IMG/VR virus record: IMGVR_UViG_3300020410_000053
Coordinates: 1 to 25,716 of that record
Direction: 5' to 3' (one strand)
Length of the DNA stretch: 25,716 nt
From: a virus
The position numbers were made by a program, and so were the translations under genes. The notes under the pieces are model-generated. The model had not been told where the DNA came from. It saw nothing but the letters and a program-made list of their open reading frames with translations, and searched no databases. Below are positions 167-25,692 of the stretch, in pieces. How positions within the stretch are numbered: the stretch's first letter is position 1; each line of letters begins with the position of its first letter.

Positions 167-328
167 ATGAAAAAATTAACATTTAAAATGAATAAAGTTG
201 TATGTGATCAATGTGGATTAAAGGTAAGAACTAATAAATACAAAGTTAAATTACCAATTCCTAGAAAAGTTCCATGCTCACAAGTCCCTGATTATTTATG
301 TGAAAAAAAGAATAAGGATAAAAAGTGA
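167..328 (+). CDS. Small zinc-ribbon-like protein, 53 residues
   Basis: The ATG at 167 sits behind a good ribosome binding site (GGAGA at 159-163), which is better than the in-frame TTG at 134. The product is lysine-rich, with a CDQC pair at residues 13-16 and two further cysteines (VPCSQ and YLCEKK), a spacing compatible with one zinc site. The stop overlaps the GTG start of the methyltransferase as GTGA, so the two are translationally coupled. The family is not recognised. A role as a nucleic-acid-binding or accessory protein is inference only. Confidence 0.6.
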   Translation: MKKLTFKMNKVVCDQCGLKVRTNKYKVKLPIPRKVPCSQVPDYLCEKKNKDKK

Positions 329-1209
329 TTGTATTAAGTTTATTTAATGGAATGTCCACTGGGCATACTGCATTAGATAATGTAGGGATAAAAGTTGATA
401 AGTATTACTCATCAGAAATAAAAACTGCTGCTATAAAGCTAACTCAACATCATTATCCTGATACTATACAATTAGGAGATGTTACTAAATGGAAAGAATG
501 GGATATAGATTGGAAGAATATAGATATGGTTTTAAGTGGCTCTCCATGTCAAGATTTAAGTATAGCGGGATCTAGAAAAGGCTTAAAAGGAGATAGGAGT
601 AGTTTGTTTTATGTTTTTGTAGAAATATTAAATCACATTAAAGAATTAAATCCTAATGTATTATTTTTGCAAGAGAATGTAGGATCTGCTCCTAAATCAG
701 ATGTAGGAGAAATGAGTAGAGCATTAGGAGTTTATCCAGTAAGAATAAACTCATCTTTAGTTACTGCTCAATTAAGAGATAGATATTATTGGAGTAATAT
801 AAGAACTGCTAATGATGGTTTATTTGGAGATGTGATAACAGATATTCCACAGCCTGAAGATAGAAACATTATGTTTAAAGATATAATAACAGATGGAGTA
901 GTGAAAGTTGATAAATCTGTATGCTTAATGGAAAGAACTATTGCCTCTGCAAGTTATAAGAACATAAAGAGCTATAAGGCTCAAAAATTCCTAAAAGGCA
1001 GAGAAGATAGATCTATGATGAGCTTAATCTATGAAGATGATGGAGATATGAGATTGCCTAATAAAATTGAGTTATGTAGGCTACAAGGTTTCAAGGATGA
1101 TTGGTGTGATATACTTACACACACAGAAGCAGGTAGTTTGTTAGGAGATGGATGGACACTACCGATCATTGAACATATTTTTAGTTATATAAAAAAGGAG
1201 AATATATGA
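325..1209 (+). CDS. DNA C5-cytosine methyltransferase, DNMT3-like motif spelling
   Basis: It transfers a methyl group from S-adenosylmethionine to C5 of cytosine in DNA. The ordered motifs are clear: motif I LSLFNGMSTG (4-13), motif IV SGSPCQDL with catalytic Cys75, motif VI ENV (117-119), motif VIII QLRDRYYW (149-156), motif IX RLQGF (252-256) and a motif X-like GDGW (274-277). The target recognition region is about residues 157-245. Motif I and the C-terminus resemble the DNMT3-like group more than classical HhaI-type enzymes. No restriction endonuclease is next to it, so it looks like an orphan phage enzyme, probably for protection of phage DNA. It starts on GTG, overlapping the previous stop, and its own stop overlaps the next ATG. 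The target sequence cannot be read from the protein. Confidence 0.92.
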   Translation: MIVLSLFNGMSTGHTALDNVGIKVDKYYSSEIKTAAIKLTQHHYPDTIQLGDVTKWKEWDIDWKNIDMVLSGSPCQDLSIAGSRKGLKGDRSSLFYVFVEILNHIKELNPNVLFLQENVGSAPKSDVGEMSRALGVYPVRINSSLVTAQLRDRYYWSNIRTANDGLFGDVITDIPQPEDRNIMFKDIITDGVVKVDKSVCLMERTIASASYKNIKSYKAQKFLKGREDRSMMSLIYEDDGDMRLPNKIELCRLQGFKDDWCDILTHTEAGSLLGDGWTLPIIEHIFSYIKKENI

Positions 1210-19887: not shown

Positions 19888-19908
19888 ATTTATGCCTTAT
19901 TTATGCCT
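19888..19908 (+). repeat. 21-bp direct repeat, right arm-like integrase site
   Basis: This is the identical second copy of 19708-19728, on the other side of the tRNA fragment. It overlaps the stop codon of the integrase gene (19901-19903), so arm site and coding end share sequence. Confidence 0.7.
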
Positions 19909-20758
19909 TTTTAGGCTTAAAAACAGCCTTTAAATACTCTAATGGAAATGATTTTAAATAGTTCTGAGTAGTTGATAGGTTTGAGTGTCCTAACAACTCA
20001 CTAACTTTCCATATGTTCCCATCATATTTAGATAGCATCTCACATGCAAAAGTATGCCTAAAAGAATGAATAGTATAATCATAATCTAAATACTTACAGA
20101 TTTTACTAAATGCTCTGCCTATAGTTTCAGGATGAATAGTTTTAATCATATCCTGATGAGCATCTAGGTAGGAGCTTATATCTTTTTGCATTGGAACTAT
20201 CCTATACTTATCTCTCTTTCCTAATACATGGAAGAAATCTCCATCAATTCTAAGTGAATAAATCTCAGATCTCCTAATTCCAGTATATAAATAGATTCTC
20301 CATAAATCATTAAAAAATATACCACTATAAATAGATTCTCTTTTAGTTCCTAGTATATCTAATGTAGCCTCAAATATCTTATCTAAATGATCTGGATGAA
20401 TAAAGTTGTTCTTTTTATCCTTATCCTCTATCTCCTTTATATAAAAAGGCATCTCTTTAAGCAGCTCAGTTTCTTTTATCATATAATTAAAGAAAGCTCT
20501 AATTCCTCTTAATCTTATGTTAATAGTGGTAGGATCTAAGCTCTCTTGCATGGCTCTTACTATCTTATGCTTATGTGATCTATTTAAAGTATCTAGATCT
20601 AAATTTCCAGTGATACTTTTCATGGTATTTACAGCAAGTTCATAAGATTTAATAGTAGATGGCTTGATTTGATTCTTCTTACCATTAATAAATATTTTAA
20701 GTGCATCAGATATAGAGATAGATTCCTTGTAATCTGATTTTAATATTCCATTCTTCAT
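19901..20758 (-). CDS. int: Tyrosine-type site-specific integrase
   Basis: It joins attP to the host attB by strand exchange. Numbered from the ATG at 20758, the core-binding helices are at 13-110 and the catalytic domain at 120-285. All catalytic residues are visible: Arg162 in YTGIRRSEIYSLR, Lys181 in LGKRDKYRIVPM, His231/Arg234 in HSFRHTF, His258 in LLGHSNLSTTQNY, and nucleophile Tyr267. From this ATG it has 285 residues, short for a phage integrase, because the arm-binding domain is encoded in frame upstream (20759-20923) without a usual start codon. The real protein is probably about 340 residues. It is on the same leftward transcript as the repressor and lies next to attP. Confidence 0.93.
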   Translation of the reverse strand: MKNGILKSDYKESISISDALKIFINGKKNQIKPSTIKSYELAVNTMKSITGNLDLDTLNRSHKHKIVRAMQESLDPTTINIRLRGIRAFFNYMIKETELLKEMPFYIKEIEDKDKKNNFIHPDHLDKIFEATLDILGTKRESIYSGIFFNDLWRIYLYTGIRRSEIYSLRIDGDFFHVLGKRDKYRIVPMQKDISSYLDAHQDMIKTIHPETIGRAFSKICKYLDYDYTIHSFRHTFACEMLSKYDGNIWKVSELLGHSNLSTTQNYLKSFPLEYLKAVFKPKKA

Positions 20759-20923
20759 AAGAGTGAGTTCAGCATTTTTAGCTTTTAATACTTTTTCAGC
20801 ATCTTTCTTATTGCAATAAAGATACTGCCTAATTCTTTTTTTAGTTATTGGATTGTAGTAATCTAAAAGATAGCATGGTTGCTGCTTAGATTTAATATAT
20901 AGCCTAATAGTAGCAATAATCAG
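20759..20923 (-). other. In-frame N-terminal arm-binding extension of the integrase, non-AUG start
   Basis: Fifty-five codons without a stop run in frame into the integrase ATG. They read as a classical arm-binding domain: ATIRLYIKS, then QPCYLLDYYNPITKKRIRQY, then CNKKDAEKVLKAKNAEL. There is no ATG, GTG or TTG in this stretch. The most upstream plausible start is CTG at 20923-20921, overlapping the repressor stop as CTGA; ATT codons follow. Upstream the frame meets TAA 12 bases earlier. A sequence error or a -1 fusion with the repressor are alternatives. Confidence 0.65.
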
Positions 20924-21780
20924 GAATTGTTTTGTTTATTATAATAATTTTCTATTTCTTCCTGATATTTCTCTTTAGTGGTTTTCTCCATTTGAACAAA
21001 GCTATATCTATCTCCTATAGATACTGAGTATGAGCTAACATAAACAGAGCTACCATCTAATCTCCTTAATTTCCATACATTAAAAGGATAATTATCTTTT
21101 TTTGCTGATTGTGTTGAGGCTACCTCTCCAGAGCCTTTATGTAAAGCAGAAATAATATCACATTTAAAATGATCATCAGGATGAATCACATTATCCCACT
21201 TAAATTCTTTTGACAGCATAACTATAGGAGAATATCCTAAAAGCCTTGCATAAGCTGATGAAACAGAGTGATAAGTTTGATCATCTACTTTTGTTATTAT
21301 TTGATACTCTGCATGGTCTATCTGAGGCATGTTGCATTGTTCTTTCTTTGTTAATTTATCTAATTTCTTATTAACAACTGCTAACTCAGTTTTAAGTTTT
21401 TGTAGTTCTTTATCTTTCTGATCTAAAGATTTATATAAAAGCTTTTTATCCCTTCTCAAATCAGATATAAGTTCATCTGTAGTAAATTTCATACTATCAT
21501 CCTCATTTGAATTTTGGTCTATGTCTAAATTTTTGTTTTCAAATGAAACATATCCTTTATCAAAAACTACCTCTTTATCTAATAATTTAGCTAAAGCAAT
21601 TATATTAGATGATCTAATCTTATAGTTCTCTATTGTTCTCCATTTAAATATAGTAGATCTAGATACATTAAGCTTTAAACCTAACTCAATATCAGATAAT
21701 CCGCTGTGCTGAATTGCCTTTTTAATGGAAGGATGCATAATTGACTTCATGCTATAATTTATAACTTTATAATGTTTCAT
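20920..21780 (-). CDS. Repressor-like regulator: HTH, coiled coil and PAS domain
   Basis: This is probably the lysogeny repressor, judged from its divergent position to a Cro-like operon and upstream of int. From the ATG at 21780 it has 286 residues. A helix-turn-helix lies at about 22-48 (LSDIELGLKLNVSRSTIFKWR), then an acidic linker, a coiled coil at 105-146, and a PAS fold at about 158-265 (SAYARLLGYSP, DNVIHPDDHFKC, WKLRRLDGSSVYVSS). No S24 peptidase Ser/Lys pair is present, so SOS self-cleavage is not expected; PAS domains sense ligands, redox state or partners. The ATG fits a leaderless start 8 bases after a -10 box. Later in-frame ATGs at 21750 and 21738 are possible. Confidence 0.78.
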   Translation of the reverse strand: MKHYKVINYSMKSIMHPSIKKAIQHSGLSDIELGLKLNVSRSTIFKWRTIENYKIRSSNIIALAKLLDKEVVFDKGYVSFENKNLDIDQNSNEDDSMKFTTDELISDLRRDKKLLYKSLDQKDKELQKLKTELAVVNKKLDKLTKKEQCNMPQIDHAEYQIITKVDDQTYHSVSSAYARLLGYSPIVMLSKEFKWDNVIHPDDHFKCDIISALHKGSGEVASTQSAKKDNYPFNVWKLRRLDGSSVYVSSYSVSIGDRYSFVQMEKTTKEKYQEEIENYYNKQNNS

Positions 21781-21788
21781 TGAAAGTA

Positions 21789-21817
21789 ATCTAATGATTC
21801 TTATTGTATAGTTACAA
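21789..21817 (-). promoter_or_regulatory. Leftward promoter for the repressor (PRM-like)
   Basis: On the minus strand TTGTAA (21817-21812) and TTAGAT (21794-21789) are 17 bases apart. The -10 box ends 8 bases before the ATG at 21780, so the transcript would start at or within two bases of the ATG (leaderless). A TTGTA-TAGT-TACAA inverted repeat (21804-21817) covers the -35 box. Confidence 0.5.
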
Positions 21818-21849
21818 GTAGAATTATTTAATAAAATGTTAAATATATG

Positions 21850-21878
21850 TTGTTTATTGTTTCTTAAATAGTTAATAT
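21850..21878 (+). promoter_or_regulatory. Rightward early promoter (PR-like)
   Basis: TTGTTT (21850-21855) and TAATAT (21873-21878) have a 17-base spacer. The expected transcript start is near 21885, directly at the inverted repeat 21886-21903. It faces away from the repressor promoter. Confidence 0.5.
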
Positions 21879-21885
21879 TAGGAAG

Positions 21886-21903
21886 CAATAGGAAACACTA
21901 TTG
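21886..21903. promoter_or_regulatory. Candidate operator, inverted repeat
   Basis: CAATAG (21886-21891) and CTATTG (21898-21903) form a perfect 6-bp inverted repeat around GAAACA, at the expected start of the early transcript. Related TTATTG half-sites lie at 21801-21806 and 21854-21859, so repressor or Cro-like protein could bind several times in the region. Confidence 0.5.
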
Positions 21904-21936
21904 ATAATGTTAGAGGAAAAAATAAAGGAGAATAAG

Positions 21937-22167
21937 ATGGGTATAATGAGTGAATTAGCAAGAGAGATGGAGAATCAATATGATGGATCAGAAGGTATTG
22001 ATTTAGAGAAAGTAATGAGTAAAAAACTTTCAGAAAAAGAAATTATTAATAAGCATTTACAAAGTGAATTAGAAAAGTTTATAGAGTTTGGAGAAAAACA
22101 AAATTCAAAGTTTAATATGGGATTAATAAGAGCATATTTAGAAAGTTTAAAAAAGGAGCAGAAATAA
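21937..22167 (+). CDS. First early protein, hypothetical, 76 residues
   Basis: The ATG at 21937 has an excellent AAAGGAG site (21924-21930), better than starts at 21901 or 21907. The product is helical and strongly charged (MSELAREMENQYDGSEG, KLSEKEIINKHLQSELEKF). Its stop overlaps the next start (TAATG). As the first gene after the early promoter it could be an anti-repressor or regulator. No family is recognised. Confidence 0.6.
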   Translation: MGIMSELAREMENQYDGSEGIDLEKVMSKKLSEKEIINKHLQSELEKFIEFGEKQNSKFNMGLIRAYLESLKKEQK

Positions 22168-22376
22168 TGGACAAAGCTATAGATAAACTATTCACAGCAT
22201 TAGATGTATTTATGAGAGTATATGCTCCTATGATAATGCTTTTAATATGGACTACTTTAACTTTTAGTCACTTTCTTAGAGGATTGAATTGGATGCCTTT
22301 ATTATTCATCTTTCCGCCTTTGATCATGATGGCTGTATCAGCATTGAAAGAATGGAGAGATATTGAAGAAAGTTAA
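22167..22376 (+). CDS. Early membrane protein with two hydrophobic segments
   Basis: The 69-residue protein has hydrophobic stretches at about 18-36 (VYAPMIMLLIWTTLTF) and 42-59 (WMPLLFIFPPLIMMAVSAL), with charged ends. It lies between an early regulator-like gene and the Cro-like gene, with overlaps on both sides. Small inner membrane proteins in early operons can act in superinfection exclusion; that is only a possibility here. Confidence 0.6.
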   Translation: MDKAIDKLFTALDVFMRVYAPMIMLLIWTTLTFSHFLRGLNWMPLLFIFPPLIMMAVSALKEWRDIEES

Positions 22377-22554
22377 AAGAATATTGAAATCTCAAGAGAG
22401 ATCTCAAGCATGGTTAGCTAGAAGGCTGGGAATTACTCCAGCCTTACTATCCTATTGGTTAAATGAGAAATCAAAACACACACCATCATTAGAATATAAG
22501 CTAAAGATGGCTGATGTATTTAATGTAGATATGAAAGAATTATTTAATGATTAG
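22363..22554 (+). CDS. Cro-like HTH regulator
   Basis: The 63-residue protein is a single XRE-type helix-turn-helix: LKSQERSQAWLARRLGITPALLSYWLN (with the recognition helix near 25-33), then KMADVFNVDMKELF. Start is TTG at 22363 with GGAGA (22355-22359) in front. It is divergent from the repressor and the third early gene, as expected for Cro, which would shut the repressor promoter and favour the lytic path. Confidence 0.8.
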   Translation: MKKVKRILKSQERSQAWLARRLGITPALLSYWLNEKSKHTPSLEYKLKMADVFNVDMKELFND

Positions 22555-25476: not shown

Positions 25477-25692
25477 ATGGATCATGATTACATGAAAGAA
25501 ACTATTGCAAGAGTTTTAAAAGAGAATGATATAAATAAGAAAGGATTAGCTCAAGCAATAACTAAATCAATAAAAGCAGATATATTAAGATTTCATGAGT
25601 TTCAGAATAAAGAATTAACTAGAGAACTATTAATTAAATCAGTTAGGATAAATAAACTTGAATCAAGAATTAATGAACAAGAAAATAAGTGA
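25477..25692 (+). CDS. Hypothetical helical protein, 71 residues
   Basis: ATG at 25477 follows the previous stop directly, with GGGAGAAAG upstream as the ribosome binding site. The product is helical and charged (MKETIARVLKENDIN, AITKSIKADILRFHEFQ, LESRINEQENK), with a possible coiled coil at the end. No domain is recognised. The gene belongs to the early operon. Confidence 0.55.
   Translation: MDHDYMKETIARVLKENDINKKGLAQAITKSIKADILRFHEFQNKELTRELLIKSVRINKLESRINEQENK

Follow-up and report, generated by a model that had tools for sequence, protein, structure and literature searches.

Repressors of the lambda cI and P22 c2 type carry an S24-like C-terminal part, and the usual setting of a lysogeny repressor gene is beside the integrase gene, in divergent orientation to the early operon. 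The Gifsy repressors are not cleaved and are inactivated by antirepressors under the control of LexA (PMC3121763), while modules of a transcription factor and a small protein inactivate phage repressors by a route that does not depend on DNA damage (PMC10432266). In vibriophage VP882, the PAS transcription factor VqmA binds an autoinducer and activates the antirepressor gene qtip (PMC8284805). Here we describe a protein at the CI position of another phage, in which a coiled coil and a PAS domain are present where the S24 part is usual. This domain make-up is unusual for repressors at this position; in the titles and opening abstracts of the open-access literature searched, PAS domains are undescribed for CI-position repressors.

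The whole stretch of DNA analysed, referred to as the window, is a single virus contig of 25,716 nt (25.7 kb; IMG/VR record IMGVR_UViG_3300020410_000053). In the related contig L015, the genes at the right end of the window run straight into those at its left end (window positions 25689 and 322; junction at L015:2799-2965). Since the two ends adjoin in this relative, the window is considered to be circularly permuted and close to a whole phage genome. The carrier is a small temperate phage. For host assignment, the relatives of the terminase and capsid were examined, giving only distant Chlorobiaceae terminases (36-37%) and uncultivated viral contigs. The terminase large subunit of L015 (L015:5260-6455) is split into two overlapping frames of 127 and 270 amino acids, as a result of either a frameshift within L015 or faulty assembly. 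A gene for C5-cytosine DNA methyltransferase is located at 325-1209 (+), with 92% identity to its copy in L015.

The putative repressor gene sits between the tyrosine integrase gene and a divergent early operon, which encodes, in this order, a 76-aa protein, a hydrophobic protein, a Cro-like HTH protein, an HTH_17 protein and the Erf annealing protein (Table 1). The gene order of integrase, repressor, 76-aa-like, hydrophobic, Cro-like and HTH_17 proteins is kept in the contig IMGVR_UViG_3300030372_002435 (L002), which carries the sole known homolog of the repressor. The original prediction of a protein at the repressor position is thus borne out by its neighbours on both sides. The integrase frame stays open upstream of its first ATG (20759-20935, -), encoding an N-terminus of arm-binding-like type, with a similar sequence in L002. 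This extension is devoid of in-frame ATG, GTG and TTG, with only CTG or ATT beside the repressor stop, and its counterpart in L002 is interrupted by a deletion of ~7 bp. The possibility that a programmed frameshift or a fusion joins the repressor to the integrase was ruled out, the relative frames of the two genes being different between the window and L002.

Table 1. Features of the repressor locus (window coordinates unless marked otherwise)
Feature	Position	Strand	Remarks
Tyrosine integrase	19901..20758	-	Phage_integrase 3.8e-14; 93% identity in L002 contig; probably starts further upstream
Putative CI-position repressor (HTH, coiled coil, PAS), whole gene	20920..21780	-	286 aa
PAS_3-type domain, about residues 160-269	20974..21303	-	Pfam, phage-pair profile, model neighbours
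Long helix, predicted coiled coil, residues 101-146	21343..21480	-	One continuous helix of ~45 residues in AF2 model
XRE/Cro-CI helix-turn-helix, residues 12-82	21535..21747	-	HTH_3 in both phages; P22 c2-like fold
Operator-like site, one mismatch	21770..21781	+	Over repressor start codon; counterpart L004:417-428
Divergent intergenic region, repressor/early operon	21781..21936		Candidate operators and promoters
Operator-like site TATTGTTTCTTA	21855..21866	+	Exact TANTGTTTCNTA; counterpart L002:333-344
Operator-like site TAGTGTTTCCTA	21889..21900	-	Exact; inverted to 21855..21866 site, 22 nt between; counterpart L002:299-310
First early gene, 76 aa	21937..22167	+	ATG at 21937 after AAAGGAG ribosome-binding site; antirepressor candidate by position only
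Second early gene, 69 aa, hydrophobic	22167..22376	+	
Cro-like XRE HTH protein, 63 aa	22363..22554	+	HTH_3 2.9e-8; 85% identity in L002 contig

The homologous protein of L002 starts at the same point as the ATG at 21780 (MKHYKVINYSMKS / MKHFNVIDYSMKS), and its open frame reaches only 11 codons further upstream. Based on this comparison, the ATG at 21780 is supported as the repressor start, and the longer TTG-started ORF is not conserved. Around this ATG (21780-21817, -) no ribosome-binding site is evident, and 7 nt upstream from it is the end of a weak promoter-like box (TTGTAA-N18-TAGATT), which has a counterpart in L002. For these reasons, the repressor mRNA may be leaderless; the lambda cI mRNA is leaderless.

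As originally predicted, the protein is composed of HTH, coiled-coil and PAS modules. When the N-terminal domain was scanned alone, HTH_3 was detected at residues 19-70 with 23.6 bits in the window protein and 25.2 bits in its L002 homolog, above the curated cut-off of 23; in full-length scans the scores were 20.8 and 22.3 bits, respectively, slightly under the same cut-off. In the AF2 model, the HTH forms a block of pLDDT ~63-82 over residues 11-80, and its structural matches include P22 c2, C.Kpn2I, ImmR and the N-terminal domain of lambda cI. The comparison of the whole protein with PHROGs gave the HTH-type family phrog_8. The helix of residues 101-146 lies between this domain and the C-terminal part.

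For the C-terminal part scanned alone, PAS_3 was the sole Pfam family matched (E 5.6e-5, profile positions 3-75 of 89), and the same family was found for the C-terminal part of the L002 protein (E 3.2e-4), the scores of 23.8 and 21.4 bits both being just under the curated 25.6. A two-phage profile was searched against 394 genomes from the phylum to which Chlorobium belongs, a choice of phylum that says nothing about the phage host. Matches were obtained in 19 genomes, all overlapping the PAS part and mostly within long open frames, and all five of the loci scanned carry clear PAS_3 domains in cellular proteins. A model of the PAS part alone (pLDDT 49.8) contains five strands and two short helices, with the Falpha region unmodelled. 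Nearly every PDB structure close to this low-confidence model is a PAS, LOV or haem-PAS domain, including those of FixL, DOS, LOV and AHR, at Foldseek E>0.1 and Z of at most 5.7. Structure prediction had been suggested originally for both the PAS fold and its pocket: the weakly scoring neighbours point to PAS, while the model is too poor for the pocket, as is the PAS part of the full-length AF2 model. Neither an S24-like nor an unrelated fold was seen in residues 158-265. Judging from the profile matches and the model neighbours, the PAS assignment is sound at the level of the family and tentative in the detail of the fold. The C-terminal segment gave no match to the MmyB-type ligand-binding domain at E<=10 (HMMER filters on), the PAS segment gave nothing convincing in PHROGs, and sequence searches of PDB gave nothing below E 0.09. 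Light had been listed among the possible signals, but a LOV light sensor is unlikely, given that a GxNCRFLQ-like cysteine motif is absent from the translated repressor sequence.

The S24 family (PF00717) was not detected (E<=1) in the window, the L002 contig or the L015 contig, while 13 of 14 control genomes were positive. The cI of VP882, run as a separate control, was recognised as S24 at 6e-20. The claim that the S24-like part is missing therefore holds, and the protein appears not to belong to the lambda-type S24 repressors as defined by a C-terminal S24 peptidase-like domain. The absence of S24 does not by itself indicate ligand sensing, because many S24-less repressors are switched off by antirepressors. 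The "different logic" of prophage induction proposed in the original prediction likewise does not follow from the missing S24 alone, as illustrated by the Gifsy antirepressors (PMC3121763). SOS induction could still take place in this phage, because the Gifsy repressors, though uncleaved, fall to antirepressors controlled by LexA. Three kinds of SOS-box pattern were no commoner than expected by chance and no standard SOS box was found; by sequence, no antirepressor was identifiable in this phage.

The L002 repressor is 55% identical to the window protein, is encoded beside a 93%-identical integrase, and is also composed of HTH and PAS without S24. Using the whole protein, the pair alignment, the HTH alone, the PAS alone or the L002 protein as queries, only L002 was found among the viral contigs. 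One scan of genome contigs with the repressor gave no homolog, tblastn gave none in phages (E<=0.01) or plasmids (E<=1), and the PAS segments gave only noise against phages at E<=10. The repressor family, with two members, is either rare or badly sampled.

The two repressors differ markedly in conservation along their length. The HTH is ~85% identical with dN of 0.125, indicating that DNA recognition is constrained, while the linker and coiled coil are ~40% identical. Within the PAS domain, the first (N-terminal) half including the HPDDH region is 62% identical with dN/dS of ~0.27. In contrast, conservation is lowest in the second half, which comprises Falpha and the G-H-I strands and shows ~25% identity and dN not below dS, although the alignment of this half is uncertain and the estimates of selection are rough because dS is near saturation. 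On the pocket side, the Falpha region of L002 is shorter by ~20 aa, in-frame. Such divergence on the pocket side does not seem to fit a conserved cofactor pocket shared by the two phages. With the DNA-binding part apparently held fixed and the pocket side of PAS apparently changing freely, either the two phages respond to different cues or the PAS domain serves mainly for assembly or partner contact. Since the N-terminal half is constrained and the pocket-side half is not, a role in assembly or partner contact is favoured over a shared cofactor site, and dimerisation or partner binding by PAS is at least as likely as ligand sensing.

The only two exact copies of TANTGTTTCNTA in the whole window are both located within the divergent region, facing each other, and the same arrangement is observed in L002. 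Allowing one mismatch, 5 of the 11 matches in the window fall within 21770-21900, a count that is circular because the pattern was derived from those very sites. In an unbiased repeat search, three related 12-mers were detected in the divergent region, a result equalled by 4 of 300 shuffles and 62 of 1024 genome tiles. The clustering of putative operators is suggestive only. A scan for promoter-like sequences gave no excess of hits over shuffles. The DNA pattern of the operator region was also searched in viral contigs, and two further matches, both inside unrelated structural genes, were rejected as chance.

The proposed role of the protein as lysogeny repressor is drawn from the gene position and the operator-like repeats, and the operators, the assembly role and the release mechanism are all inferred. 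With confidence a little better than even, we propose the following mode of regulation. The XRE HTH would bind the operator-like repeats at 21770-21900, and the bound repressor would shut off the rightward early operon for the 76-aa, hydrophobic, Cro-like, HTH_17 and Erf proteins, probably tuning its own gene as well. The coiled coil and PAS would stand in for the C-terminal domain of the lambda repressor, allowing dimerisation or oligomerisation and serving as the part for switching off. Release would then occur through an altered assembly of PAS and coiled coil, and, because S24 is absent, not through RecA-stimulated self-cleavage. As the trigger, a protein partner of phage or host origin is likelier than a small ligand, given the lack of conservation on the pocket side, the existence of antirepressors that act on non-cleavable repressors (PMC3121763), and the transcription factor-small protein modules by which phage repressors are inactivated without a need for DNA damage (PMC10432266).

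Direct sensing by the repressor is a less probable mode, which we regard as a tentative possibility. The PAS domain would read a small ligand, haem, flavin or the redox state, the coiled coil would relay the change to the HTH, and a metabolic cue would thus induce the prophage directly, with a sensor half evolving fast between the sister phages and a DNA-binding half staying the same. The kinship of the PAS_3 domain to those in long cellular open frames, as well as the sensor domains among the closest solved structures (FixL, DOS, LOV and AHR PAS), is in agreement with such a mode, and precedents are known in MltR, an XRE and PAS regulator with a bound fatty acid (PMC3406030), and in VqmA, the phage PAS receptor for DPO (PMC8284805). 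However, the half of PAS that should form the pocket is the one that is not conserved, with Falpha differing by ~20 aa between the sister phages, and the LOV motif is missing. Moreover, ligand residues are unassignable on so poor a model, and structural matches this weak do not indicate a cofactor.

The same fast divergence, including 25% identity in the second half of PAS, dN not below dS and the in-frame length change in Falpha, could also be expected for a degenerate PAS remnant used for packing only, induction then being spontaneous or through dilution of the repressor. We consider this very improbable, since the first half of PAS with the HPDDH region is conserved and neither phage has lost the open frame. 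Improbable too, if less so, is a role of the protein as an accessory regulator, for instance an activator of the early operon or the integrase, lysogeny being kept by the 63-aa Cro-like protein or a host repressor. The genome does encode a second XRE protein (22363-22554) and an HTH_17 protein, and both phage PAS regulators and XRE proteins that activate antirepressor genes are known (PMC8284805, PMC10432266); yet it is the gene for the PAS protein that occupies the usual place of the repressor, while the Cro-like gene lies inside the early operon.

For the proposed CI-position repressor, the domain make-up suggests that something other than cleavage of the repressor by itself may induce this phage. 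If PAS controls repression, induction would be coupled to something besides self-cleavage, possibly directly to the state of the cell within one protein, and no relay of receptor plus antirepressor as in VP882 would be needed. With the protein defined and a candidate operator region located, this question becomes amenable to testing.

Among the known systems, lambda cI and P22 c2 have in common with the window protein the XRE HTH fold, the genomic position and a C-terminal part beyond the HTH, which is S24-like in these two repressors but not in the window protein. The Gifsy repressors remain uncleaved on induction, as proposed here, but they are controlled by identified small antirepressors under LexA (PMC3121763), whereas searches of the window phage gave no antirepressor and no standard SOS box. 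VqmA of VP882 is also a phage-encoded PAS transcription factor bearing on lysis versus lysogeny (PMC8284805); its sequence similarity to the window protein is undetectable. The domain order is reversed, VqmA carrying PAS_4 at the N-terminus and a LuxR-type GerE HTH at the C-terminus, in contrast to HTH_3 followed by PAS in the window protein, and VP882 keeps a separate cI with HTH_3 and S24, while S24 is absent from the window genome. The regulators of the MmyB/MltR family, found mostly in actinomycetes, are cellular and are proposed to be ligand-switched activators, in contrast to the phage protein without a match to the MmyB-type domain; like the window protein, however, they are composed of an N-terminal XRE domain and a C-terminal PAS-related domain, and are thought to be dimeric (PMC3406030).
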